From assembly GCA_027859235.1 (NCBI GenBank), contig JAQIBE010000275.1, positions 1 to 44,212 on the forward strand: DNA of 44,212 nucleotides. Direction: 5' to 3'. The notes beneath the pieces were generated by a model. That model saw nothing but the letters and a program-made list of their open reading frames with translations, did not search any database and had not been told where the DNA came from. Positions within the stretch are counted from its first letter, which is position 1; every line of letters begins with the position of its first letter. The translations under genes and the position numbers were made by a program. Of this stretch, positions 23,132 to 41,758 are shown piece after piece. The stretch is from Desulfobulbaceae bacterium. Lineage in GTDB: Bacteria; Desulfobacterota; Desulfobulbia; Desulfobulbales; SURF-16.

Positions 23132-24487
23132 CTATTCTTCAATGTATAATTTTTTGATCTTGCGCCATAAGGAAACGCGGTCAATACCCAGGGCCTTAGC
23201 GGCTTCAGTCTTGTTAAATCCTGTTTCTTTCAAGATCCACTCAATATACGATTTTTCCACCTCTTCCATGGAGGCATATTTTCCCACCGTTTTGCGAAAG
23301 GTCTGCATATCGAGACTGCGCAGGTCATCGGGGATTTCACCAAGGCCCAGGGTGGAGCTGTTGGCCAGGGCAACCCCCCGTTCAATAATATTTTCAAGCT
23401 CACGCACGTTGCCGGGGAAATCATACCGTTCAAGAGTCTCTATGACCTCTGGGGCGACCTGCTCGACTTGTTTATGCATGGACGCATTGTATCTGTCCAG
23501 GAAAAACTGGACCAGAAGCGGGATATCATCCTTACGTTCGGAAAGGGGCAGGATTTTTAACGACACCACATTGATCCGATAAAAAAGATCCTGCCTGAAA
23601 TGACCCGCCTTCACCTCTTGGTCGAGATCCCGGTTTGTGGCGGCCAGAAAACGGACATTCACCTGCACAGGTTTGGTGCCGCCCACCTGCATCACTTCCT
23701 GTTCCTGGAGTACGCGGAGGAATTTGACTTGCATGGAGAGGGGCATTTCCGTGATCTCATCGAGAAACAGGGTGCCGCCGTCAGCCATTTCCACCAACCC
23801 CTTCTTGTCGCTGTCAGCCCCGGTAAAGGCGCCTTTTTTATGGCCGAACAATTCGTTGGTTAAGAGCTCTTCGCTAAAGGCACCGCAATTGATCGACAGC
23901 ATGGTTTCAGCATGGCGCGGGCTGCAGTTATGAATATATTTAGCCAGGAGTTCTTTTCCGGTCCCGGACTCGCCACTGATAACGACATTGGTGTCGGTTG
24001 CGGCAATCTGCTGCGCCATATCAAGCAGACTTTTCATCTGACGATTATGGGTGATGAGTTGTGGTTGTGCCTCCGTACGGTTGACCTGCCGGCGTAATTG
24101 CTCAATTTCAGTTACCAGTTGGTATTTTTGAATGGCCTCCCGCACCACCTTGCGGACCTGATCAAGTTTGAACGGCTTGGCAATATAATGATAGGCTCCA
24201 GCCTTGAGAGATTCCACTGCAGAATCAATGGTGGAAAACCCGGTTATCATAATGACCTCGGTCTTGGGATACGTACCCTTCACGCGCTGTAAGACCTGAT
24301 TGCCGTCAACCTGGGGCATCTGGAGATCGGTGAGGACAAGTGCAAATTCCTGCTTCTCCAGATAGGCCAGGGCCTGCTTGCCGCTTTTGGCACTGGTGAC
24401 CTGATACCCTTCTTTCGTGAGGACGTGACCGAGGTTTTTTAAGGCAACAGGTTCATCGTCAACAATTAATATTTTTACGTCAGACAT
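23132..24487 (-). CDS. NtrC-family sigma-54-dependent response regulator
   Basis: A 451-residue regulator with three domains. The receiver (1-120) has acidic D10 and D11, phospho-acceptor D54 in LVLTDLQMPQ, and the KPF lysine near 104. The AAA+ domain (about 145-385) has Walker A GESGTGKE (172-179) and the sigma-54-contact loop GAFTGA (219-224), both intact. A Fis-type HTH (about 415-451) contains NKTEAAKALGIDRVSLWRK. It should activate sigma-54 promoters after phosphorylation by the adjacent kinase, whose gene it overlaps by 13 bases. The probable target is the sigma-54 promoter at 26114-26129 with the dyads at 25947 and 26034, just beyond the kinase gene (inference). A relic of a paralogous HTH lies at 35992-36108. 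Confidence 0.93.
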   Translation of the reverse strand: MSDVKILIVDDEPVALKNLGHVLTKEGYQVTSAKSGKQALAYLEKQEFALVLTDLQMPQVDGNQVLQRVKGTYPKTEVIMITGFSTIDSAVESLKAGAYHYIAKPFKLDQVRKVVREAIQKYQLVTEIEQLRRQVNRTEAQPQLITHNRQMKSLLDMAQQIAATDTNVVISGESGTGKELLAKYIHNCSPRHAETMLSINCGAFSEELLTNELFGHKKGAFTGADSDKKGLVEMADGGTLFLDEITEMPLSMQVKFLRVLQEQEVMQVGGTKPVQVNVRFLAATNRDLDQEVKAGHFRQDLFYRINVVSLKILPLSERKDDIPLLVQFFLDRYNASMHKQVEQVAPEVIETLERYDFPGNVRELENIIERGVALANSSTLGLGEIPDDLRSLDMQTFRKTVGKYASMEEVEKSYIEWILKETGFNKTEAAKALGIDRVSLWRKIKKLYIEE

Positions 24488-25827
24488 GACGCCTCCTTGG
24501 CTGGCAGGATAATGGTAAAGACCGCTCCCTGGCCCATGTTGTCAATATTGATGCTACCGCCGTGTTGGACGATAATGTCATGGATGATAAAGAGACCCAG
24601 GCCGGAACCCTGGCCGGTGTCCTTTGTGGTGAAAAAGGGATCAAATATTTTTCCGTGAAGCTGACGAGGGATTCCAGGGCCAGTGTCACTGATGGATATT
24701 TTCAAGCCCGCCTGGTTTTGCCAGGCCCGAATCTTGATTTTGCCGGTGCCGTTCAAGGCATCGCAACTATTATTTAAGAGATTGATGAACACCTGCTGAA
24801 TTTTTTGCTTGTCGGCAAAGATGAGAAGATCCTCGGCAATGGCGAGTTGGATCTCAATATCCTTGCTCACCTGACCGTGCAGCAGATCTAAGATTTCCTG
24901 CAAAAGGGGCTTGAGTGGATAATGATCCCGGTGAAATTTCTCTTCACGGGCTAAGGATAATAAGGTCTTGATAATGGCCGAAGCCCGACTGGTTTCCGTG
25001 GTGATCTGGGTCAATAATTCCTGGGAGAAGTCATCATGGTCACCGAGTTCCTCTGCCAGGATTTGGGCTGAACTGGATATGTTTGATAAGGGGTTATTAA
25101 ACTCATGGGCAACGCCAGCGAGCATGGTGCCCAGTGAGGCCAGTTTCTCCGAGCGAACTAACTGTTGCTGCCGGGCTTTTAATTCCCGGCTCATTTGATT
25201 AAACCCGTTGATCAGGCTGTTAATCTCGCGACTGGTACTGGTAAAAGGCGCTTCAATAAAATTTCCGGTGGCAATGGTGGCGGCATGTTGTTCCAACTGT
25301 TTTAATGAAGAGACAATACCTCTGCCGAGTAAGGCTGCAATAGAGCTGAACAACAGAACCAGAAGCGGGAGCATTAAGATCAGGGAGTTGCGAATGAGAC
25401 CCAGGAGATGGTGGATGGTTTGATGTTCGCGGACAATAAGTTCTTCGGCAAGGGTGGTGAGCTGATCGCCATGGGTACGAATTTCTGCAGCTATGAGCGC
25501 TGTATGGGGCTGATGCTGCTGAAACTCATTAAAGGTTGTGGTGTAGGAGTTCAGGGCGTTTCGTACTGCGTTAATCTCTGAGGGTGAGCTGAGCCGAATG
25601 AAGAGTTGCTCGTTTTCGTTGAGATGGTGTGTGGCGGTCTGCAGGTGGGCTGCCCATTTCGCAATGGTTTGTTGGTCTTTGTACAGGAAGAAGTTCATTT
25701 CTATCATCCGAATTCCAAGGATGTTTTCCAGGAACGCATCCGTCTTTTCAATATTGAAAAGCTTTTTCTCCACCGTCCGCACAATCCCATAGGTGATCAC
25801 CGAACTGCCGATCATAAAGGTCAGCAC
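24475..25827 (-). CDS. Membrane sensor histidine kinase, N-terminus cut by an in-frame amber
   Basis: A 450-residue open frame from GTG 25827. It starts inside the first transmembrane helix (LTFMIGSSVITYGIV). A periplasmic sensor of about 120 residues follows, then TM2 (LILMLPLLVLLFSSIAALL), a HAMP-like linker (about 168-220), HisKA with H241 in AHEFNNPL, and an HATPase domain with NLLNNSCDAL, DTGPGI and GQGSGLGL. The N-terminus looks incomplete: the same frame continues upstream across a TAG (25837-25839) to ATG 25878, which has GGAG 7 bases before it. It is therefore either a nonsense-mutated kinase, one restarting downstream, or one with readthrough. It is paired with the sigma-54 regulator downstream. 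Confidence 0.85.
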   Translation of the reverse strand: MLTFMIGSSVITYGIVRTVEKKLFNIEKTDAFLENILGIRMIEMNFFLYKDQQTIAKWAAHLQTATHHLNENEQLFIRLSSPSEINAVRNALNSYTTTFNEFQQHQPHTALIAAEIRTHGDQLTTLAEELIVREHQTIHHLLGLIRNSLILMLPLLVLLFSSIAALLGRGIVSSLKQLEQHAATIATGNFIEAPFTSTSREINSLINGFNQMSRELKARQQQLVRSEKLASLGTMLAGVAHEFNNPLSNISSSAQILAEELGDHDDFSQELLTQITTETSRASAIIKTLLSLAREEKFHRDHYPLKPLLQEILDLLHGQVSKDIEIQLAIAEDLLIFADKQKIQQVFINLLNNSCDALNGTGKIKIRAWQNQAGLKISISDTGPGIPRQLHGKIFDPFFTTKDTGQGSGLGLFIIHDIIVQHGGSINIDNMGQGAVFTIILPAKEASCLT

Positions 25828-26113: not shown

Positions 26114-26129
26114 TGGCACAGGATATGCA
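26114..26129 (+). promoter_or_regulatory. Sigma-54 (-24/-12) promoter
   Basis: TGGCACAGGATATGCA matches TGGCAC-N5-TTGCA with one mismatch and has exactly 10 bases between the invariant GG (26115-26116) and GC (26127-26128). Transcription would begin near 26140 and run into the Usp-like gene and the genes beyond it. Confidence 0.75.
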
Positions 26130-26190
26130 GTCCAGTTGAGTCAGTGAGTGATGCAGAGATGAACGTAAAGAGTTGACAACAGGGAGCGGC

Positions 26191-26607
26191 GTGGCACAGA
26201 ATACAATAAGTAATAAAAAAGTGCTCCTCGTTACCAATGCTTCGGTTTTGAGCCAGGAGATGATTCTCCACGGTCTCAACTTGAGCAAAAGGATGGATGC
26301 CTCTCTTGAGATTCTTCATCTTTTAAAAAAGGTAACGGTTGCTGCTGCCGCGCAAAGTTTTAAGTCTCATTTAGCCAAGCTTCATTCCACTGAGCCGGTG
26401 GCCTATATCCCTTTGTTGAATGACCGGGGGCTCACCACCGAAACCGTTGAGTACGCCAGAAACAGGCGCAATATTTTTTGCATTATTCTCTGCCTGAAAG
26501 GGGAAGGCGCGCCGCAAAAGAAAGGCCAGCGTCAAAAGAAATTTGCCGAAGTGACACAATTATTGAACTGTCCTGTCGTGCTGTATACAGAGAGTCCAGT
26601 TTCTTAA
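26191..26607 (+). CDS. Universal-stress-protein-like small protein
   Basis: About 138 residues from GTG 26191 (VAQNTISNKKVLLVTNAS). I chose it over a TTG at 26173 because GGGAG lies 4 bases upstream. The pattern KKVLLVTNA…HGLNLSKRMDASLEILHLL…CIILCL…LLNCPVVLYTES suggests an alpha/beta Usp-type fold: first strand, an amphipathic helix, then a late strand ending in CPVVLY. The ATP-binding G-x2-G-x9-G(S/T) motif is not evident. It is the first gene behind the sigma-54 promoter, so it may be a signalling or stress component of that regulon. The family call is moderate. Confidence 0.6.
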   Translation: MAQNTISNKKVLLVTNASVLSQEMILHGLNLSKRMDASLEILHLLKKVTVAAAAQSFKSHLAKLHSTEPVAYIPLLNDRGLTTETVEYARNRRNIFCIILCLKGEGAPQKKGQRQKKFAEVTQLLNCPVVLYTESPVS

Positions 26608-26634: not shown

Positions 26635-26877
26635 ATGAAAATTCTCATTGGTATCACGCAAGATCTGGACGGAGTTAAAGATACATTATCCTCCCAATAT
26701 AAAGGCTTAGGTGTTTCCACCCAGGCAGGCCCTTTTAAAACCCGGGAAGAGGCCTTGAACTGGCAAGCTTTTATGATGAACAGGCGGGATAATTATGAAG
26801 AAATTAAAATTCAACAAGGATCTGTAGCTGATGCCTACTGGTTTGGCATTACCGTCGAGAGTTCAAGCCTTCACTAG
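26635..26877 (+). CDS. Uncharacterised 80-residue protein
   Basis: A small soluble protein with an excellent ribosome-binding site (TTAGGAGTTGAAAAC before ATG), 27 bases after the Usp-like gene. The composition is balanced: it starts MKILIGITQDLDGVKDTLSS, has a central REEALNWQAFMMNRRDNYEE segment, and ends DAYWFGITVESSSLH. It has no transmembrane segment, signal peptide or cysteine. I recognise no family. Being between the Usp-like and LCIB-like genes on the sigma-54 transcript suggests an accessory or regulatory role in the same system. Confidence 0.75.
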   Translation: MKILIGITQDLDGVKDTLSSQYKGLGVSTQAGPFKTREEALNWQAFMMNRRDNYEEIKIQQGSVADAYWFGITVESSSLH

Positions 26878-26919: not shown

Positions 26920-28101
26920 ATGAATACCTCCTATCAGCAATCCCATATCATCCGCAAATTGGCCCCGTTTAAGATTGATGGTCTGGCCATACCCTACGCC
27001 GAATTTGCGCCAAAGCTCTTCAATCTCTGTATGACCCTGGGGTTTCGCAAGGGCTTGATTATGCCGTCCCGGGCCTTTTGTTCCGATGAGAATCAGGGGT
27101 GGCCGATTATTCTCCTCACCAAACATTTTGGCACCTTTCCTTTTAACCATGGCCGGGTTGGTGGTATTGTTGCCACGGATCGCCATGGGCCCCATGCCCA
27201 CCATGGTGAGGATTCCGTGATCGTTCAGGCCAGTCATGTGGGTTATGACCCCGGTACAGGAGCCTATGGCACCTATATCCGGCCCAAGATGGCAGGCACC
27301 TGTGTCTCGGTTTCCTGCGGCAAGATTACCCATGTGATCACCCCCTATCTGGAGCAGTATCAATTTGCCAAGGAGCGGATCTTTCTCAGTCTGGATGATA
27401 AGGGGCAGCATTTGATTACGGTTAAAAATTCATTTGTCGATTTTGATATTCATCCGGTCAAGAACGGTCTGGTTTTGAACCTGGAAAGTATTGTTAAAAC
27501 CGATCCCCTCGGTAAAATAATACCCATTGCCGCCATCAGCACCAGCCAGACCTATGAGGTTTCGGAAGATTTTCGCAAGAAAATCGATGCTACAGGTTAT
27601 GTCTGGAAGAAAGGGGAAGGGGAAAGTATCGGTGAACTGCTCACCTCGGAACTCTTTTATTTCCGGGAGGAGTTTCATGAAAAGGACGAAGCCATTCTGC
27701 TGGAGCGGAATCTGATAGAGTTTATGCCCACCATTGTCACCTCGCGCAATCCACCCCTGCGGGCTGCCAAGATTAATATTCAATTGGAATTTGCCCGGAC
27801 CGTGGAATCCATTCGCCGGGGGGCGGAATACGCGGGTAAAAACCTGCTCTATATCGCCGGTTTGAATGTTGATATCTCAGAGCATGACGACTATCCGGCG
27901 ACCACCTATTTTGTGCCGTGGGCCGCACATATTCAACTGAAAGACGGTACCCCGGCCGAATATGCCCATCCCCTTGAGCAGGATCGACTCTTTGAACTCA
28001 TCATGGCCCAGGATAGTAAAAATCCTGAGCAGGCTGATTTGAAAGAACAGATTGCTAAAATGCTCAAGGCACCCCGGTTTGATATTCACTCACCGAAGTA
28101 A
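26920..28101 (+). CDS. LCIB-like (theta-type) carbonic anhydrase candidate
   Basis: A 393-residue soluble protein. Residues 50-135 follow the LCIB/theta-carbonic-anhydrase layout: C54 in FCSDEN (family C-x-D-E), the glycine pair in HGRVGGIVATD, the HAHHG segment, H106 in ASHVGYDPGTGAYG (family PHIxI…G), then RPKMAGTCVSVSCG with C133 (family S-x-CG). The family zinc ligands are Cys, His, Cys in this order, matching C54, H106 and C133. I compared from memory, without a search. The C-terminal about 250 residues are unassigned. There is no signal peptide. The ribosome-binding site is weak. It sits between the small orphan gene and the Ehr-type complex, 150 bases upstream of the latter. Another zinc hydrolase is possible. 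Confidence 0.6.
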   Translation: MNTSYQQSHIIRKLAPFKIDGLAIPYAEFAPKLFNLCMTLGFRKGLIMPSRAFCSDENQGWPIILLTKHFGTFPFNHGRVGGIVATDRHGPHAHHGEDSVIVQASHVGYDPGTGAYGTYIRPKMAGTCVSVSCGKITHVITPYLEQYQFAKERIFLSLDDKGQHLITVKNSFVDFDIHPVKNGLVLNLESIVKTDPLGKIIPIAAISTSQTYEVSEDFRKKIDATGYVWKKGEGESIGELLTSELFYFREEFHEKDEAILLERNLIEFMPTIVTSRNPPLRAAKINIQLEFARTVESIRRGAEYAGKNLLYIAGLNVDISEHDDYPATTYFVPWAAHIQLKDGTPAEYAHPLEQDRLFELIMAQDSKNPEQADLKEQIAKMLKAPRFDIHSPK

Positions 28102-28194
28102 CCACCACGACATGTCATAATCCATGCTGAACGTTCAGGCCGTGGGGCGCTCCCCCGTGGCGACGACTATATTGTAAACCAAGAGTTAAAGAGG

Positions 28195-28223
28195 TTCCGG
28201 GGCCAGAACGGCCCCGGAATTTT
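28195..28223 (+). terminator. 10-bp hairpin with T-run before the Ehr genes
   Basis: TTCCGGGGCC (28195-28204) and GGCCCCGGAA (28210-28219) form a perfect 10-bp stem with a 5-base loop, followed by TTTT. It looks like an intrinsic terminator or attenuator between the LCIB-like gene and the membrane complex, 28 bases before the latter's start. Confidence 0.7.
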
Positions 28224-28251
28224 AGATATAAATATATTGGGAGGAGAATGA

Positions 28252-30210
28252 ATGGACACCTTGTTTGTGTCAATGGCCGTAATTATTGCCGGAGGGGCTG
28301 CAGGACTGCTCCTTTGCCGGCAATTTACCCTGATGAAGTTGGTGGCCATTGCCACCACCTCCGTCGGTTGCGGCATTGGACTACTTTTTACTGTACCGAA
28401 GCTGCTCAGTGGCGGAGCAGAGCTTGCTGTGACCTATAATTGGTTACACGTCTTCACTCTGGCCTTTAAGTTGGATAGCGTTTCGCTTTTCTTTTTGATT
28501 CCAATCTTTCTGGTTCCACCTCTGACCCTGCTGTACAGCTTCCATTATCTTGAGAATAAAGACAAGAAGCTCAGGGTTGGCGTCAGCTATTTTTTCTTCA
28601 GCGTTCTGGTGGCCTCCATGGCCCTTGTGGTTATGGCAGATAACATGATCACCTTTCTCCTGGCCTGGGAGCTGATGTCCCTGTCCTCCTTCTTCCTGGT
28701 CATGTATGACTACGAGGTCTATGAAAATCGCAAGGCGGGCTATCTCTACCTCATCTTTGCCCAGGGCGGCGCCATGCTGCTGTTCGCCACCTTTGCCCTG
28801 ATTTACCGCCATACCGGAAGTTTTGACTTTGCAAGCTTTGCCAGTATCCCCGATGCAAGCAAGCTGCTTGTCTTTATCTTGGCCTTTCTGGGTTTTGGTT
28901 CCAAGGCCGGTATCTTTCCCTTACATATCTGGTTGCCCAAGGCCCACCCTGCGGCTCCGAGCCATGTCTCGGCCATTATGTCCGGGGTGATGATTAAGAT
29001 GGGAATCTACGGCATTTTCAGAATCTATCTGCTCCTTGATGCCCCCACCCCTGTTATTGGTCAGATTGTCCTGGCAACCGGCATGGTGACCGGTATCCTT
29101 GGCGTGGTTTACGCCTTGGCCAAACAGGATATCAAACAGCTCCTGGCCTACAGTTCTGTTGAAAATATCGGCATCATCCTCATCGGCCTTGGTATTGGTA
29201 TGGTGGGTGTCTCCGAGCAGAATCAAGCCATGGCCTTCTTTGGTTTTGCCGGGGCCCTGCTCCATGTCTTTAATCATTCCATCTTCAAGTCCTTACTCTT
29301 TATGGGTGCCGGTTCGGTGCTGCATAAGGCCAAGACCAAAAACATCGAGGAGCTCGGCGGTCTCATGAAACGGATGCCCGTCACCGGCCGGACGTTTCTG
29401 GCAGGTTCCGTGGCTATTTCGGGGCTACCGCCCTTTAGTGGTTTTATCGGTGAGTTCCTCATCTATTACGGGGCGTTTCAAGGTCTTTCCAGTCAGAATC
29501 TGCCCTATATTATGACCATCCTTGCCATTGTTTCCCTCGCTGTAATCGGTGGTTTGGCCACAGCCTGCTTTACCAAGGTTGTGGGGCTCGGTTTCCTGGG
29601 CGAGCCACGCACGGCACAGGCGGCGAATGCCAAAGAGTCGGGCTTTGCCATGGGCTTCGTTATGTCCATTATGGCGCTGGCCTGCCTGGTTATCGGTGTG
29701 CTGCCTGAACCCTTTGTGCGTCTGGCCTTCCTGGGGATACAGGATGTCCCTGCTGCTGCGGGTTTTAATACGGACAGTTTTATTGTCATCATCCAGCATA
29801 TCTCCAAGACCGCCGCCTTATTTATTGGTCTGCTGCTGCTCGTCTCTCTGTTTCGCAAAATGATGTATGTCAAAAAAGAGATCGGTTCTGGTCCCACCTG
29901 GGGTTGTGGTTTTACTCAGCCCACCGTGCGGATGCAATACACCGGCACCTCTTATGCTGCGGAAATGATAGGTTTCTTCAAACCCTTTGTGCCGGTGAAG
30001 ACTGTGTACACGGGTATTCGCAAAATATTCCCCGGTAAAACCACCTGGGAGTCAGAGGTTGTGGATATTGCAGAGTCTAATTATCAGCTCCGTTTAATTA
30101 CGCCGATGCTGACCTTGCTCGGCAAATTACGCTGGATTCAGCATGGCAATATTCAGCTTTATATCGGCTATATTATCGTCGCTATAATTGTCTTATTGCT
30201 CTTTTTATAA
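28252..30210 (+). CDS. Ehr-type complex, antiporter-like subunit 1 (HyfB/NuoL-like)
   Basis: A 652-residue polytopic protein of the complex I/Mrp antiporter family, comparable with HyfB or HycC. Conserved landmarks are LLAWELMSLSSFFLVMYD (the glutamate of TM5), FLGFGSKAGIFPLHIWLPKAHPAAPSHVSA (the TM7 lysine region), KQDIKQLLAYSSVENIGIILIG and HVFNHSIFKSLLFM, which hold the ion-channel lysines and histidines. GAGGAG precedes the start. It is the first gene of a six-gene membrane complex and presumably forms one ion-translocating half-channel in the inner membrane. No long NuoL-type lateral helix is obvious, although the last hydrophobic segment is separated by a long cytoplasmic stretch (MMYVKKEIGSG…). 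Confidence 0.9.
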   Translation: MDTLFVSMAVIIAGGAAGLLLCRQFTLMKLVAIATTSVGCGIGLLFTVPKLLSGGAELAVTYNWLHVFTLAFKLDSVSLFFLIPIFLVPPLTLLYSFHYLENKDKKLRVGVSYFFFSVLVASMALVVMADNMITFLLAWELMSLSSFFLVMYDYEVYENRKAGYLYLIFAQGGAMLLFATFALIYRHTGSFDFASFASIPDASKLLVFILAFLGFGSKAGIFPLHIWLPKAHPAAPSHVSAIMSGVMIKMGIYGIFRIYLLLDAPTPVIGQIVLATGMVTGILGVVYALAKQDIKQLLAYSSVENIGIILIGLGIGMVGVSEQNQAMAFFGFAGALLHVFNHSIFKSLLFMGAGSVLHKAKTKNIEELGGLMKRMPVTGRTFLAGSVAISGLPPFSGFIGEFLIYYGAFQGLSSQNLPYIMTILAIVSLAVIGGLATACFTKVVGLGFLGEPRTAQAANAKESGFAMGFVMSIMALACLVIGVLPEPFVRLAFLGIQDVPAAAGFNTDSFIVIIQHISKTAALFIGLLLLVSLFRKMMYVKKEIGSGPTWGCGFTQPTVRMQYTGTSYAAEMIGFFKPFVPVKTVYTGIRKIFPGKTTWESEVVDIAESNYQLRLITPMLTLLGKLRWIQHGNIQLYIGYIIVAIIVLLLFL

Positions 30211-30242
30211 CGGCCCTGGCCGCAATTGGTCAGTGCGAAGTA

Positions 30243-30284
30243 TGAAAGTTTCAGTCCTGGATGTCTCTATGACGTAAACTTTCA
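30243..30284. repeat. 9-bp inverted repeat between two Ehr genes
   Basis: TGAAAGTTT (30243-30251) and AAACTTTCA (30276-30284) are perfect inverted copies 24 bases apart, within the 105-base gap between the first and second complex genes. It may be an mRNA stem affecting relative expression or a protein-binding dyad. Confidence 0.5.
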
Positions 30285-30315
30285 CAAAAGCTGAAAGAAA
30301 ACGAAGGAAATTACA

Positions 30316-31233
30316 ATGGAATCAATATTATCATTTTGCTTTGCGGTCTTGATAGCGCCCCTTTTGCCTGCGGTAATCCAGAAGGTAAAGGCCTATTTTG
30401 CCGGCAAGCAGGGACCTCCCCTGCTTATTAATTATTACACCACGATCAAGCTCTTTAAAAAGGGGTCCGTCTATTCAACCAGCACCAGTTTTGTCTTTAA
30501 AATGGGGCCGGTGGTGGGGTTTACCACCAGTCTGATGATGCTGCTCTTCTTCCCCATGGGTGAGGTGAGTCCTCTGTTGTCATTCCATGGGGATGTGCTC
30601 ATCCTCTTTTACCTCATGGGGCTTGGGCGCTTCTTTACGATTTTAGCAGCTCTGGATACCTCATCACCCTTTGAAGGCATGGGTGCGGCGCGTGAGGCAT
30701 TCTTCTCCACATTGGCTGAAGCCACGGTCTTCTGTATTCTCATCCTCTTCTTTAGGTTGACCGGGAGTCTGAGCTTCAACGAATTCTTTTCCGGTCCCCA
30801 TGCCATGAATCTCATGGGTGAATATGGAGCGCTCTTGATTCTGGTTGTCGTGGGGCTGTATATTGTCATGCTCACTGAGAACTCACGGGTTCCGGTGGAT
30901 GACCCTGCCACCCATCTTGAGCTCACCATGATCCATGAGGTTATGATCCTTGACCATAGCGGCCCTGATTTGGCCCTTATTGAAATGGGAGCCTGGTTTA
31001 AGCTCCTCTTTTACTCAGGCTTTCTCGCCCGGATTATTGACCCCTTTCACTCCGAAAACGTCATCGTCAATGCTCTGCTTTTTTACGCGGTGGTGATCTT
31101 TGTTTACGTCACTGTTGGTGTGGTGGAATCTATTACTGCCCGCTACAAGATGAATCTTGTGCCTAAATTTATCCTGACACCATTTATCCTTGTCTTTTTT
31201 GTTACCATTTTAACCATGGGGGTCCTGCAATGA
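30316..31233 (+). CDS. Ehr-type complex, HycD/NuoH-like membrane subunit
   Basis: A 305-residue protein with about eight transmembrane segments, equivalent to HycD, HyfC or NuoH, the subunit joining the peripheral arm to the membrane arm. Diagnostic segments are KVKAYFAGKQGPPLLINYYTTIKLFKKG, LDTSSPFEGMGAAREAFFSTLAE and ENSRVPVDDPATHLELTMIHEVMILDHSGPDL, with the acidic residues of the quinone-entry/E-channel region. AAGGAA lies before the ATG. The stop overlaps the next start as ATGA. Confidence 0.93.
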   Translation: MESILSFCFAVLIAPLLPAVIQKVKAYFAGKQGPPLLINYYTTIKLFKKGSVYSTSTSFVFKMGPVVGFTTSLMMLLFFPMGEVSPLLSFHGDVLILFYLMGLGRFFTILAALDTSSPFEGMGAAREAFFSTLAEATVFCILILFFRLTGSLSFNEFFSGPHAMNLMGEYGALLILVVVGLYIVMLTENSRVPVDDPATHLELTMIHEVMILDHSGPDLALIEMGAWFKLLFYSGFLARIIDPFHSENVIVNALLFYAVVIFVYVTVGVVESITARYKMNLVPKFILTPFILVFFVTILTMGVLQ

Positions 31234-31916
31234 TCCAGTTATCCAATGCTCTCGTCTCTGTTAGCCATGTAGGGGATGTCCTGCTGACCATGACGGTCTT
31301 GTCTGTGCTGCTCTCTCTCGGCTCAAACAGGCTTGGGGCCCTCGTGAAAATTATGGCTTTTCAAGGGATTGTGGTTTCTCTGATTCCATTCTTTTTAGAG
31401 CATCATGGACAGATGAGTACCGGTTCTATTATTCTTCTGCAAATCATGCTTTTGATTAAGGGTCTCCTTATTCCAGGCTTCATGTATGCTGCAGTAAAAA
31501 AGATCAAAATTAAGTTGGAGGTTGAGCCCATCATTGGCTACAACGCCTCTCTCTTTGCCGGGCTTATTTTTATTCTGCTGGCGGCGTTTATCACCAACCG
31601 GTTACAGATTTCCCTGCCGGTGAAAAATGAGTTGCTCATGATTGCCGCCATCACGACGCTTGCTGCTGGTCTCTTCCTTATTATGAGCCGCCATAAGGCG
31701 TTGACTCAGGTCATCGGCTATCTCATGATGGAAAATGGCATTTATCTGATTGGTACAGCCCTGGCCAAACAAACACATACTATGTATGTCGTTGAGTTTG
31801 GCGTATTGCTGGATTTACTGGTCGGCATCATGATCATGGGAATTATTGTTCATAATATCAACTCCTCCTATGACGATGTTGATACGGCCCTTTTGGGTCA
31901 ACTTAAGGATAATTAA
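31230..31916 (+). CDS. Ehr-type complex, HyfE-like membrane subunit
   Basis: A 228-residue protein with about six to seven predicted helices, corresponding to HyfE. The C-terminal half contains the NuoK-like signature YLMMENGIYLIGTAL with the buried glutamate, followed by VVEFGVLLDLLVGIMIMG. It is translationally coupled to the HycD-like gene (ATGA overlap). The presence of a HyfE-type subunit makes the complex Hyf/Ehr-like rather than the smaller Hyc/Ech types. Function in isolation is unknown; it completes the membrane arm between the antiporter-like units and the HycD-like subunit. Confidence 0.88.
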   Translation: MIQLSNALVSVSHVGDVLLTMTVLSVLLSLGSNRLGALVKIMAFQGIVVSLIPFFLEHHGQMSTGSIILLQIMLLIKGLLIPGFMYAAVKKIKIKLEVEPIIGYNASLFAGLIFILLAAFITNRLQISLPVKNELLMIAAITTLAAGLFLIMSRHKALTQVIGYLMMENGIYLIGTALAKQTHTMYVVEFGVLLDLLVGIMIMGIIVHNINSSYDDVDTALLGQLKDN

Positions 31917-31985
31917 AAAAAGGTAAATGTTCAGCGTTGAGCAGTAGTGCAGTCCTCTCTGGATAATTTAAAAGAAGGTTTGAAA

Positions 31986-33416
31986 ATGTTAGAACTTATA
32001 ATGCTTATTCCCTTATTGACCGGGATTATCGCCATGTTCCTGCCTGTTCGGTTAGGGCGTGGCATCCTGATCGTGACCGCGTTATTGCATCTGCAATTAA
32101 CGGTCTTTGCCTGGCTTGGTAAAATTACTCCGGCCCTGCCTCAATATTTTACGGTGACCAATGAAGGGATGCTGATCCTGCTGGTGACCTCATTTGTCTT
32201 TCTGTTCATCTCCATCTATGCCATCTCGTATATGAGTGAGGCTGAAATTTCCAGCGAGCCGATCTATAATGGCTGTACGCTGCTCTTTTTGGCCACCATG
32301 TCAATGGTGACCATGGCTGACCATCTCATTGTCTTGTGGATTGCCATTGAAGCCACCACCCTGATGAGTGCCCCCTTGATCTTCCTGCATCGATCCAAAA
32401 CAGCCCTCGAGGCCACCTGGAAATATGTAATGATCTGCTCGGTGGGTATTGCCCTGGCCCTGCTCGGTTGTTTCTTTGTGGTGCTCGCCATGGATCTTGG
32501 CGGGGTGCATGTTCCCATCACCTTTACGTCCTTAGGGACCGTAGCGCAGCAGCTTGATCCGGTTTGGCTCAAGGCGGGATTTATCTTTCTGGTTATCGGT
32601 TACGGAACCAAGATGGGTCTTGCCCCCATGCATACCTGGCTACCTGATGCCCATAGTGAGGCCCCAAGCCCTGCTTCAGCCCTCCTGTCCGGTGCGCTTC
32701 TCAATTGTGCCTTCCTGGGTGTATATCGCGGCCATCAACTCATGTATCAGGCGGGACTCGGTGCTTTTTCATCTAATATCCTTATCGGTTTCGGCCTGTT
32801 TTCCATGCTCATCGCCGCTATCTTCATCTTTAATCAGACCGGTTATAAGCGGATGCTGGCCTATTCCAGTATTGAGAATATGGGCATCATCGCCTTCGGT
32901 GTCGGTATTGGCGGCTTAGCCACCTATGGTGCCATGCTCCATCTGATCCATCATTCCCTGATTAAATCATCCCTCTTTCTCTCGTCCGGCAATATCCTGC
33001 TGGGGTACGGCAGTAAGTTGGTGAACAAGACGGGGAATATGGCCAAACTCTTCCCCAAGACCTTCACTGCATTTTTTGCAGGTTTTGCCGGAATCTCAGG
33101 GTTTCCACCCTTTGGTATCTTTATCAGTGAGCTCCTCATCATTATGGGTGCTTTTCAGCAGGGCAGGATGATCTCGGTCAGTATCTTTATCCTGGCCCTT
33201 GTTCTGATCTTTGCCGGGGCGTCGCGTCTGGTCACCAAGATGTGTTTTTCTCGATGTAATGATCCTGAGATCCTGGTGGAAGAAAACCTGGCACGGACCT
33301 TACCTTCTTATGCGCTCCTGCTGACTTCAATTGTCCTCTGCATCTGGTTGCCGGACAGCTTATATCAAACAATACTCTCGGCAATCGCCACAATCGGAGG
33401 TGGAGTCAATGGGTAA
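31986..33416 (+). CDS. Ehr-type complex, antiporter-like subunit 2 (HyfF-like)
   Basis: A 476-residue polytopic protein of the antiporter family, corresponding to HyfF. Landmarks are ADHLIVLWIAIEATTLMSAPLI, GYGTKMGLAPMHTWLPDAHSEAPSPASALLSG, YKRMLAYSSIENMGIIAFG and HLIHHSLIKSSLFL. I moved the start to ATG 31986, preceded by AAGAAGG at 7 bases; an upstream GTG (31947) would add a hydrophilic leader without support. With the 652-residue subunit this gives the complex two antiporter-like pumps. It overlaps the large-subunit gene by 8 bases. Confidence 0.92.
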   Translation: MLELIMLIPLLTGIIAMFLPVRLGRGILIVTALLHLQLTVFAWLGKITPALPQYFTVTNEGMLILLVTSFVFLFISIYAISYMSEAEISSEPIYNGCTLLFLATMSMVTMADHLIVLWIAIEATTLMSAPLIFLHRSKTALEATWKYVMICSVGIALALLGCFFVVLAMDLGGVHVPITFTSLGTVAQQLDPVWLKAGFIFLVIGYGTKMGLAPMHTWLPDAHSEAPSPASALLSGALLNCAFLGVYRGHQLMYQAGLGAFSSNILIGFGLFSMLIAAIFIFNQTGYKRMLAYSSIENMGIIAFGVGIGGLATYGAMLHLIHHSLIKSSLFLSSGNILLGYGSKLVNKTGNMAKLFPKTFTAFFAGFAGISGFPPFGIFISELLIIMGAFQQGRMISVSIFILALVLIFAGASRLVTKMCFSRCNDPEILVEENLARTLPSYALLLTSIVLCIWLPDSLYQTILSAIATIGGGVNG

Positions 33417-34914
33417 ATTACTGCAAATACAAAATAATGAACGGCTCAACCGGGCCGATATCCCCCATCTTGAATTTGATGTCTTTCGTCAGGAATTAGT
33501 GGATTTTGTCGAGAATGGGGGGCAGATTGTCCAGTTCTTCGCCTACGAAGATCAGGGTGCAATGAAACTCCTCGCGGTCATGCGCAACGATAAGCTGTTC
33601 GTTGCCGGCTGTGACGGACCGGATCATTTTGATTCGCTGACCGCGGAATCGGAAAAATTCCACATGTTTGAGCGGGAGATCGGTGAACAATACGGCCTTA
33701 AGGCCGAAGGGCATCCTTGGTTGAAGATGGTGCGCTACCATGAGAATTATACGGGTAAGAAGGATGTCTTTGATAACGATTATACTCAGGATATCCCGGG
33801 CAACTATCCCTATTTTCAAGTGGAAGGCGAGACCGTCCATGAGGTAGCGGTTGGCCCGGTTCATGCCGGGATTATTGAGCCGGGTCATTTTCGGTTTCAA
33901 TGCTGCGGTGAAAGGGTCTTCCATCTGGAAATTCAACTGGGTTATCAGCATCGTGGCGTAGAAAAACTCCTGCAAACGGTGCCCTTTAAACGGCTGCCCA
34001 TTATTGCGGAAACCATTGCTGGAGATACCACGATTGGTCATAGTCTCTGTCAGTCTCAGGCCATTGAGTCCTTAGCGGATCTCAAGGTGGATGAGGGTGC
34101 TTCCATCGTGCGCACTATTGCCCTGGAGCTTGAACGAATTGCCAATCATATTGGTGATCTCGGGGCCTTGAGTCTTGATGTGGCCTTTAATCCTCCGGCC
34201 GCCTATTTTGGCCGGATCAGGGGTGAATACCTCAACCTGAGTCAAGTCCTCTGCGGCAGCCGTTTTGGCCGTGGTCTTGTGCGCCCCGGTGGTGTGACCC
34301 ATGTGATGCAGGAGGAGCAGCGCCAGTTGATCCGGGAGAAATTAGCGGAGCTTACCCCGGAAGTGATTCATGTAAGTGATCTCATCTTCACGGCGCCCAG
34401 TGTTCTCGGTCGTTTTGATAACGCCGGTACGGTGAGTCATGAGAATGGCGAAAAAATAGGCCTGGTGGGTTATGCAGGCCGAGCCTGTGGTCTGCCCTAT
34501 GATGCCAGGGTGACCTTTCCCACCGAATGTTACGGCGATCTGCCGGCCAATACCAACGAGAAGACCGATGGTGATGTCTGCTCAAGGGCCACGGTTCGGC
34601 GGGAAGAAATTATGCATTCCACCGCTTTGATTAATACCCTTTTGGACAGGAGTGCAGAGGCGGCAAGTTATATCCCTGAGGAGATTAAACTGGCTGCGGA
34701 TTCCTTTGTGGTTTCCCTCAATGAGGGGTGGCGCGGTGAGGTTTCCCACTGCATTCTCACCGATGATAAGGGTGAAATCCTGCGCTATAAGGTTAAAGAC
34801 CCATCCTTTCATAACTGGACGGGGCTGGCCCTGTCCCTGCGTGATCAAGGGATTTCTGAATTTCCATTATGTAATAAGAGCTTCAACCTGTCTTACTGCG
34901 GGTTTGATATATAA
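33409..34914 (+). CDS. Ehr-type complex, HycE-like large subunit without NiFe ligands
   Basis: A 501-residue fusion of a NuoC-like N-terminus (1-about 125) and a NuoD-like large subunit (about 140-501: ETVHEVAVGPVHAGIIEPGHFRF, LEIQLGYQHRGVEKL). In catalytic group 4 hydrogenases the N-terminal motif CGxC follows ER(V/I); here the equivalent stretch is AETIAGDTTIGHS, with A204 and T207 at the Cys positions. The C-terminal DPCxxC motif is replaced by SFNLSYCGFDI, which keeps a single Cys. The NiFe centre therefore cannot form. This matches the energy-converting-hydrogenase-related (Ehr) class, whose substrate is unknown. The start is at 33409 with GGAGG and GGAG upstream; no maturation protease site is expected. 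Confidence 0.92.
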   Translation: MGKLLQIQNNERLNRADIPHLEFDVFRQELVDFVENGGQIVQFFAYEDQGAMKLLAVMRNDKLFVAGCDGPDHFDSLTAESEKFHMFEREIGEQYGLKAEGHPWLKMVRYHENYTGKKDVFDNDYTQDIPGNYPYFQVEGETVHEVAVGPVHAGIIEPGHFRFQCCGERVFHLEIQLGYQHRGVEKLLQTVPFKRLPIIAETIAGDTTIGHSLCQSQAIESLADLKVDEGASIVRTIALELERIANHIGDLGALSLDVAFNPPAAYFGRIRGEYLNLSQVLCGSRFGRGLVRPGGVTHVMQEEQRQLIREKLAELTPEVIHVSDLIFTAPSVLGRFDNAGTVSHENGEKIGLVGYAGRACGLPYDARVTFPTECYGDLPANTNEKTDGDVCSRATVRREEIMHSTALINTLLDRSAEAASYIPEEIKLAADSFVVSLNEGWRGEVSHCILTDDKGEILRYKVKDPSFHNWTGLALSLRDQGISEFPLCNKSFNLSYCGFDI

Positions 34915-34991
34915 ACGGTATTTCTGAGACAGGGTTCAGGGGGAGGGGGGTCCTCTTCTTCTGCCTGTCTTCAGACTCCTGAGGAAAAAAA

Positions 34992-35735
34992 ATGTTAAAA
35001 GTCATTAAAAATAGATTGGAACAGGGGCATCGGACAACGAAATACCCCAAAGCTCAAATTGAGCTGTATAAGCGGTTTCGGGGGTTGCCGAAGATCGACA
35101 CGAAATGTGCGGATGGTTTAGTGCAGCGCTGTGCAGCTGCCTGCCCGCAGGATGCCATTGATACCAAGACCAAGCAGATTGACCTTGGCCGGTGTGTATT
35201 CTGCGGCCTGTGCGAGACCTTGTCTGAGGGGCAGTTTGTTAAATTTAGTCAAAATTTTGAGCTGGGAACCTCCAGTCGCGATGATCTCTTCACCCATGGT
35301 GATCTGCCGGCCCTGGCTGAACACTCCCAAAAACATTTTAAAAAGCTTTTTGGTCGTTCTCTGCAGCTGCGGCAGATCTCGGCCGGAGGGTGCAACGCTT
35401 GCGAAGCGGACATCAATGTGCTCAATACGCCTTTCTTTGATTTGCAACGCTTTGGTATTCAGTTTGTCGCTTCCCCCCGGCATGCAGATGGTATCCATGT
35501 CACCGGGCCGATATCCGAAAACATGCGTCAGGCAACCCTGACGACCTGGGAAGCGGTTCCTGGGCCGAAGGTAGTCATTGCCAGTGGGGCCTGTGCCATT
35601 TCAGGCGGGCCGTTTCACGGCAGTCCTGAAATTGTCGGTGATCTGAACAGCTTGATCCCGGTGGATCTCTATATCCCCGGGTGCCCCCCTCATCCCCTCA
35701 CCACCCTGCATGCGTTGCTGAATTTTTTCAAGTAG
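34992..35735 (+). CDS. Ehr-type complex, ferredoxin-NuoB-like fusion small subunit
   Basis: A 247-residue fusion. The C-terminal NuoB/HycG-like domain keeps all four ligands of the proximal N2-type cluster: C134 and C137 (GGCNACEAD), C201 (ASGACAISGG) and C231 (PGCPPHP). The N-terminal NuoI/HycF-like ferredoxin domain (about 33-85) is degraded: motif one has only C39, C47 and C51 (KCADGLVQRCAAACP), and motif two, C68, C71 and C74, has S78 in place of the fourth Cys. By the usual crossed ligation only one 4Fe-4S cluster can form there. It is the last gene of the complex, preceded by GAGGAAAAAAAATG and followed by a strong stem-loop. Confidence 0.9.
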   Translation: MLKVIKNRLEQGHRTTKYPKAQIELYKRFRGLPKIDTKCADGLVQRCAAACPQDAIDTKTKQIDLGRCVFCGLCETLSEGQFVKFSQNFELGTSSRDDLFTHGDLPALAEHSQKHFKKLFGRSLQLRQISAGGCNACEADINVLNTPFFDLQRFGIQFVASPRHADGIHVTGPISENMRQATLTTWEAVPGPKVVIASGACAISGGPFHGSPEIVGDLNSLIPVDLYIPGCPPHPLTTLHALLNFFK

Positions 35736-36295: not shown

Positions 36296-36311
36296 TTCCC
36301 TTGATTATATT

Positions 36312-36352
36312 CATAATCGCACTAATACAAGCATTGTATTAGTGTGATTATG
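36312..36352. repeat. 19-bp inverted repeat upstream of trkA
   Basis: The arms 36312-36330 and 36334-36352 are inverted copies with a single mismatch, which is a G-T wobble in one RNA strand, and a 3-base GCA loop. T-rich sequence (GTTTTCCTCTTTT) follows. It could be a terminator or a large operator about 150 bases before trkA. The rest of 35811-36500 shows no gene apart from the relic and repeats listed. Confidence 0.65.
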
Positions 36353-36500
36353 GTTTTCCTCTTTTGCGGATCATGAGTCATATAGCGTTGGATTGGCGTT
36401 CATTGCTTGTTTTATGGTGATGAGTGTACTTATTAATCTCTGTTCTTCTACGCGGCGAGCTTGAAAAGAGTAGTGCCGGGTCTCTCCCTTACGTGGTTTT

Positions 36501-37832
36501 ATGGATATTTTAATTTACGGGGCTACTGAGATCGGGCATATGGTTGCCACGCATCTCTGTCAAGACCATAATGTCACGGTCATTGATGCCTTAAAATCCC
36601 CTCCTGAAAAATTCACAAATCTTGATATCGGTTTTATCAGCGGCAGTGGTGCTGATGTCACTGCCCTGGAGCAGGGAAATGTTGACAAAATTGATCTCTT
36701 CATCGCCTGTTCCGGTCTCGATGAGGCGAATGTTGTTGCCTGCTGGACCGTGAAGAAAATTGCCGACCCGGAGACCATCTGTTTTGTCCACTCCAAAGAG
36801 CTGTACAAGAATCTCAATTCGACCGATAAATACAAGTCGCGCTATGATATCGATGTGGTCATCTGGCCTCAATATCTGCTGACCCAGGATATCTTTCGAA
36901 TTATCTCCGTGCCTGATGCCATTGATGTGGAACATTTTGCTGAAGGGCAGGGTAAGCTTTTTGAATATCGAATTAAGGAGAATTCCACCCTGATCAACAT
37001 CAAGGTGATGGACTGTCCCTTTCCGCCGGATGTTCTTATTGTCGGGATCACCCGTGACAATGAGCTCTTTATACCTGACGGCTCAACCGTTATTCTCTAC
37101 GATGATAAGGTCATTTTTCTCGGCACAGGGCCCGCTCTGGATCTCCTCTCCGCCAGGATCTTCGAGCAGAGTAACCCGATTAAAACCGCCACCGTGATCG
37201 GCGGCGGCAATGTCGGCTTTCTCCTGGCCACAAAACTGGAACAGGCCGGGATAAAGGTGAAACTCATTGAGCAGGACCCGGACCGTTGTCTCTTTCTTGC
37301 CGATAATCTCAAAAAAAGTCTTATCCTGCATGGGAACGGAACCGACCTGGAGCTCCTCGAAGGCGAAATGATCGGCCAGTCCGATGTTGCGGTTATGGTA
37401 ACGAATAATGATGAAAAGAATCTTCTCTGCTCCCTGATGATTAAACAGCTGGGTTGTGAACGGATCATCACTCGCGTTGAAAATGCTCGGAATATGAATC
37501 TCTTTGAACGGGTGGGCATTGATGTGGTTGTGTCGCCCCGGGAATCGGCATTAACCGAATTGCTTAATCGTGTGCAGCGCCATAATATTGATATCCTGGC
37601 GCTCGTCGAGGGGGGGCAGGGAGAACTCCTGCGGATTGCCCTGCCTGATGATTTTGTTGAGACAAGGGTTATGGACATTCATTTTGACGTGAGCGCCATT
37701 ATTGGTGTTATTCAACGGGGAAGGCGTATTATCATTCCCAACGGTATGACCATGATTCAGCCAGGAGATCTGCTTAAAGTTTTTACCATGGCGCAAAATG
37801 CCGAAATAATAAAAAAGCAATTCAGTCAATGA
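36501..37832 (+). CDS. trkA: Trk potassium uptake regulatory NAD-binding protein TrkA
   Basis: A 443-residue cytoplasmic protein with two RCK_N/RCK_C pairs. The second nucleotide-binding motif is intact (VIGGGNVGFLLA, about 233-244, followed by KLIEQD with the ribose-binding acid). The first is altered: GATEIG at residues 8-13 instead of GxGxxG. It gates the TrkH channel in response to nucleotides. The ribosome-binding site is poor. The stop overlaps the trkH start as ATGA. The altered first site suggests that only one nucleotide site per subunit follows the usual rule. The 19-bp dyad at 36312 may regulate the pair. Confidence 0.93.
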   Translation: MDILIYGATEIGHMVATHLCQDHNVTVIDALKSPPEKFTNLDIGFISGSGADVTALEQGNVDKIDLFIACSGLDEANVVACWTVKKIADPETICFVHSKELYKNLNSTDKYKSRYDIDVVIWPQYLLTQDIFRIISVPDAIDVEHFAEGQGKLFEYRIKENSTLINIKVMDCPFPPDVLIVGITRDNELFIPDGSTVILYDDKVIFLGTGPALDLLSARIFEQSNPIKTATVIGGGNVGFLLATKLEQAGIKVKLIEQDPDRCLFLADNLKKSLILHGNGTDLELLEGEMIGQSDVAVMVTNNDEKNLLCSLMIKQLGCERIITRVENARNMNLFERVGIDVVVSPRESALTELLNRVQRHNIDILALVEGGQGELLRIALPDDFVETRVMDIHFDVSAIIGVIQRGRRIIIPNGMTMIQPGDLLKVFTMAQNAEIIKKQFSQ

Positions 37833-39286
37833 AGTTAAGTAATATCGCAGGTGCCCTGGGCATCATCCTTACGGCCTTTGGGATTATCCTGCTCACGCCC
37901 ATTATTGTTGCTCTCCTGGCCCACGAACAACAGTTTATAATGCCGTTTGTTGTGGCCTCCGGCTGTTCTGTCGCCCTTGGGCTGATGTTTCAGAAGTATG
38001 GGGGCTGGTCGCGCAATTTTGATGACCTGCGCCGAACCGAAGGGCTGCTCATTGTGACCCTGGCCTGGGTCGTAACGGCCGCAGCCGGCGCGGTTCCCTA
38101 TCTCTTCTTCGGCTTGAACCCGTTAGATGCCTATTTTGAGTCCGTATCCGGCATCACCACCACCGGGGCGACCATTCTCATTGATTTCTCCCTCTATCCC
38201 AAATGTTTTTTCTTCTGGCGCAGCCTGACGCAGTGGCTTGGCGGAATGGGGATTATCGTCCTCTTTGTCGCGATTCTGCCCCAATTTGCGGTGGCTGGCC
38301 GGCAGATGTTTTTTGCCGAGGCCCCCGGCCCCACCGAGGAAAAGGTAACACCGCGTATCACTCAGACGGCGAAGGCGCTGTGGCTGGTCTATTTCCTGTT
38401 GACCGTATTGGAAATAATCTGTCTCCGGCTCAGCGGTTTGCCGTTCTTTGATGCGGTGTGTAATAGTTTAACCACCATGGCGGCCGGCGGGTTTTCCCCC
38501 CACCCGCAATCAATCATGGGGTACGGCAACTCAGCAGTGGTCTGGGTTGTCACCGGTTTCATGTTTCTGGCCGGGAGTAATTTTGCCCTCCAATATCGTC
38601 TGCTTATCCACTTCAGTCCGAAGTCCCTCTTGCGCAATGAAGAGTTCCGCTTTTACGCCGGTATTATCCTTACGGCCGCCATTCTGCTTTGTATCGTTTT
38701 GGTTAACAGCGGTAATCCGGGTCTCGCAGATTCTATTCGCGACAGCCTGTTTCAGATCATCTCCATCATCACCACGGCTGGTTTTTCTTCAGCAGATTTT
38801 GCCCTGTGGAGTGTGGCGGCCCAGACGATACTTTTTACCATGATGCTGGTGGGGGGGTGTGCCGGGTCTGCCGGAGGCGGCGTAAAGGTTATTCGTGTCC
38901 TCTTCGGGTTTAAATATCTGCGTCGGGAGATCAGCCAGATTATCCATCCCCAGGCCGTGCTTCCCCTTAAGATCGATCATAAATCTGTTCCGAATGATGT
39001 TCAGCGCCAAATTCTTGGATTTCTCCTGTTTTATTTGGTGCTCGCAACGATATCAGGTCTTATGGTTACGATTATTGAAGGTGACGGTACGGTGGGGCTG
39101 GTGGGAACCGCAGCCACCATTGGCAATATCGGCCCTGGTTTTGGGAGTATCGGGCCCATGGGTAGTTTTGGTACACTTTCCCCGTTGACTAAAATCATAT
39201 TCATCATCAATATGATTGTCGGACGTCTGGAGCTCATTCCTTTCCTCGCCATGCTCCATCCTGATTTTTGGGTGCGCCGCAAGTAG
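37829..39286 (+). CDS. trkH: Trk potassium transporter membrane subunit TrkH
   Basis: A 485-residue SKT-superfamily channel with four pore repeats. The selectivity-filter segments are visible: SVSGITTTGATI, LTTMAAGGFSPH, IISIITTAGFSSAD and TIGNIGPGFG. Each contains the expected glycine. The sequence GGCAGSAGGGVKVIR, just before the fourth pore, is also typical. It mediates K+ uptake through the inner membrane with TrkA and is translationally coupled to it by the 4-base overlap. Confidence 0.95.
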   Translation: MKLSNIAGALGIILTAFGIILLTPIIVALLAHEQQFIMPFVVASGCSVALGLMFQKYGGWSRNFDDLRRTEGLLIVTLAWVVTAAAGAVPYLFFGLNPLDAYFESVSGITTTGATILIDFSLYPKCFFFWRSLTQWLGGMGIIVLFVAILPQFAVAGRQMFFAEAPGPTEEKVTPRITQTAKALWLVYFLLTVLEIICLRLSGLPFFDAVCNSLTTMAAGGFSPHPQSIMGYGNSAVVWVVTGFMFLAGSNFALQYRLLIHFSPKSLLRNEEFRFYAGIILTAAILLCIVLVNSGNPGLADSIRDSLFQIISIITTAGFSSADFALWSVAAQTILFTMMLVGGCAGSAGGGVKVIRVLFGFKYLRREISQIIHPQAVLPLKIDHKSVPNDVQRQILGFLLFYLVLATISGLMVTIIEGDGTVGLVGTAATIGNIGPGFGSIGPMGSFGTLSPLTKIIFIINMIVGRLELIPFLAMLHPDFWVRRK

Positions 39287-41621: not shown

Positions 41622-41758
41622 ATTATTATTCTGGTGCCCGTTCAGAAGTGAGGGGTGATTTCGTCCATGGTGATGAGACCACTAATCGTTTCTGAGTGAG
41701 CATCAATTTATTTTTATTGGACTTTGGGAAAAGTTCAAATGGGAGAGGAAGGAAAAAC

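Follow-up and report, generated by a model that had tools for sequence, protein, structure and literature searches.

The 44,212-nucleotide stretch of DNA described here (hereafter ‘the window’; contig JAQIBE010000275.1 of assembly GCA_027859235.1, positions 1 to 44,212, forward strand) comes from the 2.85 Mb draft genome of a Desulfobulbaceae bacterium, and carries a gene for an LCIB-like (carbonic-anhydrase-like) protein immediately followed by the genes of an Ehr complex, a hydrogenase-related membrane assembly. In sulfur-cycling bacteria of the Desulfobulbales type, this relative of algal carbonic anhydrases is repeatedly linked to Ehr, often in the company of a SulP-type transporter and a second carbonic anhydrase, which suggests a possible place for Ehr in a machinery for handling inorganic carbon. 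The genes of the unit are as follows.

26173 to 26607, + strand: small universal-stress-protein-like (Usp) gene, the first of the unit (PF00582, E=0.0012, below its cut-off)
26635 to 26877, + strand: orf80 family, a conserved small protein of 80 amino acids (aa), encoded upstream of many type A Ehr loci
26920 to 28101, + strand: predicted LCIB-fold, carbonic-anhydrase-like protein of 393 aa, with a presumed zinc site at C54, D56, H106 and C133 (fold model and alignment)
28252 to 30210, + strand: HyfB-like antiporter-type membrane subunit of Ehr (HyfB, 4e-171; conserved charged residues E140, K218, K249 and E401)
30316 to 31233, + strand: HyfC/NuoH-like membrane subunit (PF00146, NADHdh, 9e-29)
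31230 to 31916, + strand: HyfE-like membrane subunit (NF008556, 3e-23)
31947 to 33416, + strand: HyfF-like antiporter-type membrane subunit (HyfF, 1e-97; conserved charged residues)
33409 to 34914, + strand: large subunit of Ehr, resembling HycE/NuoD but lacking the NiFe cysteines (Complex1_49kDa, 5e-30; alignment to HycE)
34992 to 35735, + strand: Ehr small subunit, with fused ferredoxin-like and HycG/NuoB-like domains (Oxidored_q6, 6e-27; proximal 4Fe-4S cysteines C134, C137, C201 and C231, and one further cluster)

An initial annotation of this DNA had placed an LCIB-like gene directly upstream, and on the same strand, of six Ehr genes, and the open reading frames lie as it described, with one correction: because the reading frame listed for the large subunit opens with a TTG at 33331, its likely start was moved to the ATG at 33409, which overlaps the end of hyfF. 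That annotation did not mention a conserved promoter of the sigma-54 type and the NtrC-type two-component system near it, a beta-carbonic anhydrase, a SulP transporter or, in one genus, a zinc-less LCIB copy beside Ehr.

An LCIB-like protein with a conserved presumed zinc site

When considered by sequence alone, the relationship of the window protein to LCIB is weak: profile PF18599 scores 15.6 bits (E=0.01), below its curated cut-off of 25, and searches of Protein Data Bank (PDB) sequences with the window protein and two profiles returned no LCIB match, which was obtained by fold search alone. The 66 aligned homologues, which share 45-87% identity with the window protein, all score E<=0.1 with the same profile, and the strongest of them 1.1e-7. 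The assignment was settled by a predicted model, generated with AlphaFold2 (predicted local distance difference test (pLDDT) score 83; predicted template modelling (pTM) score 0.83), for which the top eight Foldseek matches are all structures of LCIB, LCIC or PtLCIB4 (E 2e-7 to 2e-3, probability 1.00). Alignment of the model to LCIB/LCIC using VIA-align gave a Z of 22.6 and a root-mean-square deviation of 3.2 over 226 residues, with the next unrelated chain at a Z of 5.7. The product of 26920 to 28101 is accordingly modelled as an LCIB-fold protein, the identity that had been proposed for it from its sequence motifs.

Within the family, the 66 aligned sequences have C54, D56, E57, H106, C133 and G134 without exception. 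The pattern of the family designates four of these (C54, D56, H106 and C133) as the presumed zinc ligands, and their invariance, on which the earlier reading of the protein depended, argues for catalysis as its main role.

An Ehr complex that has lost its NiFe site

The subunits encoded downstream are confirmed as those of an Ehr complex by Pfam and NCBIfam profiles. In a PDB search the large and small subunits match HycE and HycG of Escherichia coli formate hydrogenlyase as well as the Pyrococcus membrane-bound hydrogenase (Mbh), and HycE and the Pyrococcus enzyme are the best solved relatives of the large subunit. Alignment upholds the view that this subunit is unable to hold NiFe: the first NiFe motif of HycE (VCGICG) aligns to IAGDTTIG in the window, and no cysteine is found in the motif at that position in any of the listed variants among 75 aligned large subunits of ‘type A’ (defined as at least 60% identical to that of the window, as opposed to 43-50% for ‘type B’). 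The small subunit, in turn, keeps its four proximal-cluster cysteines and has five nearly invariant cysteines in its ferredoxin-like part, while HyfB and HyfF retain their conserved charged residues. With the NiFe cysteines lost, and the cluster cysteines and antiporter charges kept, the complex, to judge by its sequence, cannot be a NiFe hydrogenase, and probably can carry electrons and move ions.

Linkage of LCIB to type A Ehr

A search of a genome collection yielded 80 homologous loci, mainly from Desulfobulbales-type bacteria and additionally from gammaproteobacteria. In a survey of 198 genomes of the window’s order, the LCIB-like gene was present in 59, type A Ehr in 77, and both in 49, such that type A Ehr accompanies 49/59 genomes with an LCIB-like gene versus 28/139 without (Fisher p 7e-17, relatedness ignored). 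The two are adjacent and on one strand in 38 of these 49 genomes, against a chance expectation (within 10 kb) of about 0.25% of genomes; among the other 11, several loci are truncated where a contig stops. The juxtaposition noted originally at a single locus is therefore a recurrent one, and the pairing is not due to chance.

Two gene orders are found, one that places the large subunit 5.0-5.9 kb 3’ of LCIB (34 genomes) and one in which LCIB follows the small subunit (4 genomes). When linkage to Ehr is mapped onto a tree of LCIB, at least seven changes of state are required, counting starred branches alone. Either repeated gain, or loss and rearrangement with the linkage kept, would be the pattern expected from a functional tie.

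Across the order, LCIB and type B Ehr display no positive co-occurrence (5/59 versus 26/139, p 0.09), and no LCIB gene was found at any of the order’s 20 type B loci. In the wider phylum, two LCIB genes from another family (L215, L216) adjoin a type-B-like Ehr, the large and small subunits of which are 45-51% identical, and that of L218 adjoins a type A Ehr.

Two further arrangements of Ehr genes were observed. Type B loci (L194-L213), which lack LCIB, mostly encode a second HyfB-like subunit 3’ of the small subunit; and in one genome (G132, contig C18; L127/L112) type A and type B clusters stand in tandem, with a SulP gene between them and LCIB upstream.

A shared promoter-like site and its regulators

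The control region of the unit, and a hairpin 3’ of its last gene, comprise the following features.

23132 to 24487, - strand: NtrC-type response regulator, transcribed divergently from the LCIB-Ehr unit; a sigma-54 activator with a GAFTGA motif (open reading frame and motif)
24475 to 25827, - strand: sensor histidine kinase paired with this regulator (open reading frame)
26114 to 26129, + strand: promoter-like site of the sigma-54 type, TGGCACAGGATATGCA, 5’ of the usp-orf80-LCIB-Ehr unit (1 mismatch)
36311 to 36353, + strand: strong hairpin resembling a terminator, 3’ of the Ehr small subunit gene (consensus scan only)

A -24/-12 site of the sigma-54 type is found in most type A loci that have usp or orf80, located roughly 60-100 bp 5’ of the first gene of the unit, and is in some cases perfect. 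Sites with two mismatches are frequent by chance; with at most one mismatch, they occur at 19/64 type A loci versus 1/20 type B loci. A histidine kinase and response regulator pair is present at 32-33 of 74 type A Ehr loci, and the sigma-54 activator domain recurs among the flanking genes. Where LCIB is located upstream it sits between the promoter-like site and hyfB, and the conservation of that site places LCIB inside the Ehr unit.

A 14-bp hairpin between LCIB and hyfB, at about 28195-28222, was considered as a terminator and rejected: it is missing from the output of the terminator scan, and relatives do not conserve it. This hairpin is strong and GC-rich, and might tune the amounts of LCIB versus Ehr.

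The orf80 family, for which no Pfam family was matched above its cut-off, is encoded in one or two copies 5’ of many type A Ehr loci, including loci without LCIB (for example, L088 3337-3936 and L093 9526-10154). Its product could be a small subunit or a regulator of Ehr.

Neighbouring genes for inorganic carbon

Beyond the hairpin that follows the small subunit, the window encodes two further sets of transport-related proteins, with a DNA-repair gene on the opposite strand between the TrkH and beta-carbonic anhydrase genes; no Rfam families were found in the window.

36501 to 37832, + strand: TrkA potassium-uptake subunit (PF02254)
37829 to 39286, + strand: TrkH potassium transporter (PF02386)
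41031 to 41621, + strand: beta-carbonic anhydrase (PF00484, 4e-38)
41696 to 43963, + strand: SulP/STAS anion transporter, a candidate for bicarbonate (PF00916, 3e-94; PF01740, 1e-15)

Neighbours were counted in sequence of at most 20 kb surrounding each type A Ehr cluster. A SulP gene is present at 11/74 loci, as compared to 0.7 expected from gene density (p about 2e-10, relatedness ignored), and a beta-carbonic anhydrase of the window’s type at 6/74, as compared to about 0.3 expected on the assumption of one gene per genome (p about 1e-6, again with relatedness ignored). Several genomes have SulP or the beta-carbonic anhydrase directly 3’ of the Ehr small subunit, or SulP directly 5’ of hyfB. 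The window’s SulP gene is the only one found in its genome. LCIB relatives that are not associated with Ehr, from gammaproteobacteria and elsewhere, have SulP or DabA/DabB as neighbours (7/69 flanking proteins are SulP and 2/69 DabA). The acetyl-CoA synthase family CdhC is encoded in the genome of the window and in 12 of 13 relatives tested, so that CO2 is likely to be either a metabolic need or a product.

The pairing of a beta-carbonic anhydrase with a long SulP protein, in which an insert separates the two Pfam halves, recurs in the order (window 41031-43963; G093 C1 129048-131113; G096 C4 425780-427815), also away from Ehr. It is a candidate bicarbonate transporter set; bicarbonate, rather than sulfate, is the candidate cargo of SulP solely by virtue of this pairing in several genomes.

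Comparison with known systems

Two energy-coupled systems for CO2 hydration offer the closest parallels. The cyanobacterial NDH-1MS/CupA complex (PMC6981117) likewise joins a membrane machine of the complex I family to a carbonic-anhydrase-type protein, with redox-driven proton pumping pulling the hydration of CO2. In contrast, CupA is helical, of an unrelated fold and (by description) unlike known carbonic anhydrases, whereas the partner here is predicted to have an LCIB fold; the membrane arm here is of the Hyf/Ehr type, with a hydrogenase-like large subunit, and its coupling is presumed. No CupA/CupB-type family appears among the Pfam matches of the locus proteins scanned. In the DAB2/MpsAB systems (DabA, PF10070, with DabB, PF00361; PMC13144422), a zinc protein of the beta-carbonic anhydrase type is similarly encoded beside an antiporter-like PF00361 subunit; however, these systems consist of two proteins, take their energy from the proton gradient and have no iron-sulfur subunits. 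DabA has no match among the scanned window proteins, and is present only beside the gammaproteobacterial LCIB relatives.

The solved LCIB/LCIC and PtLCIB4 structures (PDB 5b5y, 5k5w, 5b5x) share with the window protein its modelled fold and a C-x-D / H / S-x-C-G-type layout, but the window protein is bacterial, only 12-16% identical, longer (393 aa versus approximately 240 in the solved chains) and encoded with Ehr. The Ehr complexes of Geobacter (PMC7894505) and of candidate phyla (PMC6349859) are also Hyf/Hyc- or Ech-like, with large subunits that lack the Ni/Fe residues. Those complexes have been the subject of formate-linked proposals, whereas here a carbonic anhydrase and SulP accompany the complex; the open-access literature searched ties Ehr to formate and not to carbonic anhydrase, and earlier reports elsewhere are possible.

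A 2024 review (PMC10880623) remarks that organisms with the Wood-Ljungdahl pathway repeatedly have carbonic anhydrase genes beside formate hydrogenlyase or formate dehydrogenase (Desulfocapsa sulfexigens being one example), an arrangement it calls hard to explain. One genome of the order (G083, equated with that species by guess) has LCIB, Ehr and a beta-carbonic anhydrase in a row, the last directly 3’ of the Ehr small subunit, and the ‘formate hydrogenlyase’ of the review is therefore probably this Ehr without its NiFe site. The review treats the complex as a formate hydrogenlyase, and the passage concerned says nothing of LCIB, of the promoter, of the lost NiFe site or of how widely the locus is conserved among genomes.

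Proposed function and alternative explanations

The substrate of Ehr has not been established, and the presence of LCIB in an Ehr unit, together with SulP and a second carbonic anhydrase, offers a concrete role in inorganic carbon handling. The placing of type A Ehr in a module for inorganic carbon is well supported. A more specific account, which is put forward tentatively and at somewhat less than an even chance, is that the locus forms a sigma-54-controlled inorganic-carbon module wherein the LCIB-like zinc enzyme is the dedicated partner of type A Ehr, and proton pumping by Ehr pulls hydration. The enzyme would interconvert CO2 and bicarbonate in the cytoplasm; electrons from a low-potential donor such as ferredoxin would travel along the iron-sulfur sites in the small subunit, powering the antiporter-like HyfB and HyfF; and the pump would carry off the proton of CO2 hydration, which would make hydration one-way (as has been proposed for NDH-1MS and DAB2). 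SulP would bring in bicarbonate, and the beta-carbonic anhydrase would hand CO2 back to the Wood-Ljungdahl pathway. The module may also run in reverse, with proton-driven dehydration of bicarbonate supplying CO2. We infer the catalysis, its direction, the electron donor and the binding to Ehr, and the physical and energetic coupling of LCIB to Ehr would follow by analogy with the systems compared above.

In its boldest form, which is judged unlikely, this account would make type A Ehr a complex that uses redox energy to hydrate CO2 (or to dehydrate bicarbonate), with an LCIB-fold protein as the subunit that performs the catalysis; the principle of NDH-1MS would then have arisen independently in anaerobes. 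If true, this would be the first substrate assigned to an Ehr complex; and, if coupled, the system would join NDH-1MS and DAB as the third design for an energy-coupled carbonic anhydrase, and would do so in Wood-Ljungdahl anaerobes, in which the open-access literature searched describes no active CO2-handling complex of this kind.

Several observations weigh against the module as proposed. LCIB is missing from 36/74 type A Ehr loci (some of them cut by contig ends), so Ehr is probably able to work without it, and LCIB genes without Ehr are common outside the Desulfobulbales-type group. The linkage p-values take no account of shared ancestry. The Wood-Ljungdahl pathway consumes CO2, not bicarbonate, and the beta-carbonic anhydrase, having no obvious signal peptide, is apparently cytosolic and would short-circuit a stored bicarbonate pool. 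Of the initial annotation’s suggestion of an energy-coupled CO2/bicarbonate device, the link between Ehr and inorganic carbon is strengthened (by SulP, the beta-carbonic anhydrase, the shared sigma-54-type site, and the DabA/DabB or SulP neighbours in gammaproteobacteria), while a simple bicarbonate-accumulating pump is disfavoured by that cytosolic-looking enzyme; roughly half of type A loci lack LCIB.

The absence of LCIB from so many loci also favours a different explanation, somewhat unlikely overall, whereby the carbonic anhydrases and SulP merely balance CO2 and bicarbonate in the service of carbon fixation, and Ehr transfers electrons as a complex of its own (linked to ferredoxin or formate, for example), co-regulated with them for autotrophy but physically uncoupled. 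Acetyl-CoA synthase in 13/14 genomes tested is in line with this, as are the rise of Geobacter Ehr with formate (PMC7894505) and the formate dehydrogenase-Ehr complex proposed elsewhere (PMC6349859). Nevertheless, in a set of 100 flanking proteins formate dehydrogenase does not rank with the 25 commonest families (118 families were matched, and single occurrences are possible), none of the window proteins scanned was identified as a carbon-fixation enzyme, and LCIB lies between the promoter-like site and hyfB, in a linkage that outlasts rearrangement.

It is also conceivable, if rather improbable, that LCIB serves Ehr as a structural or CO2/bicarbonate-sensing subunit, gating proton or electron flow according to inorganic carbon or pH. 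The observation behind this idea, which likewise counts against the proposed module, comes from one genus (g40; L102-L108), in seven genomes of which the gene at the Ehr-adjacent LCIB position is only 26-31% identical, having lost C54, D56 and C133 in 7/7 and H106 in 6/7. A model of this zinc-less copy still has LCIB/LCIC among its best matches, albeit partial ones (probability 0.9, TM 0.19-0.28 for the best), and the copy was termed degenerate rather than a new fold. Its retention beside Ehr suggests that it is structural or regulatory in that genus, or is decaying, and the weak, partial fold match would suit simple decay. In the 66 other aligned sequences the presumed zinc residues are invariant, which speaks for catalysis as the main role. 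Some g40 genomes have a second divergent LCIB copy elsewhere.

Finally, a role in pH or ion homeostasis, in which Ehr would shift protons or sodium, TrkAH would import potassium, and the carbonic anhydrases and SulP would buffer with bicarbonate under stress, is improbable, and the least likely of the explanations weighed here, for although the unit has Mrp-like subunits and a Usp-like gene, and TrkA/TrkH are encoded in the window and at 4 other type A loci, Trk is found at just 5/74 loci and lies beyond the terminator-like hairpin, and the gammaproteobacterial LCIB relatives keep company with DabA/DabB and SulP.

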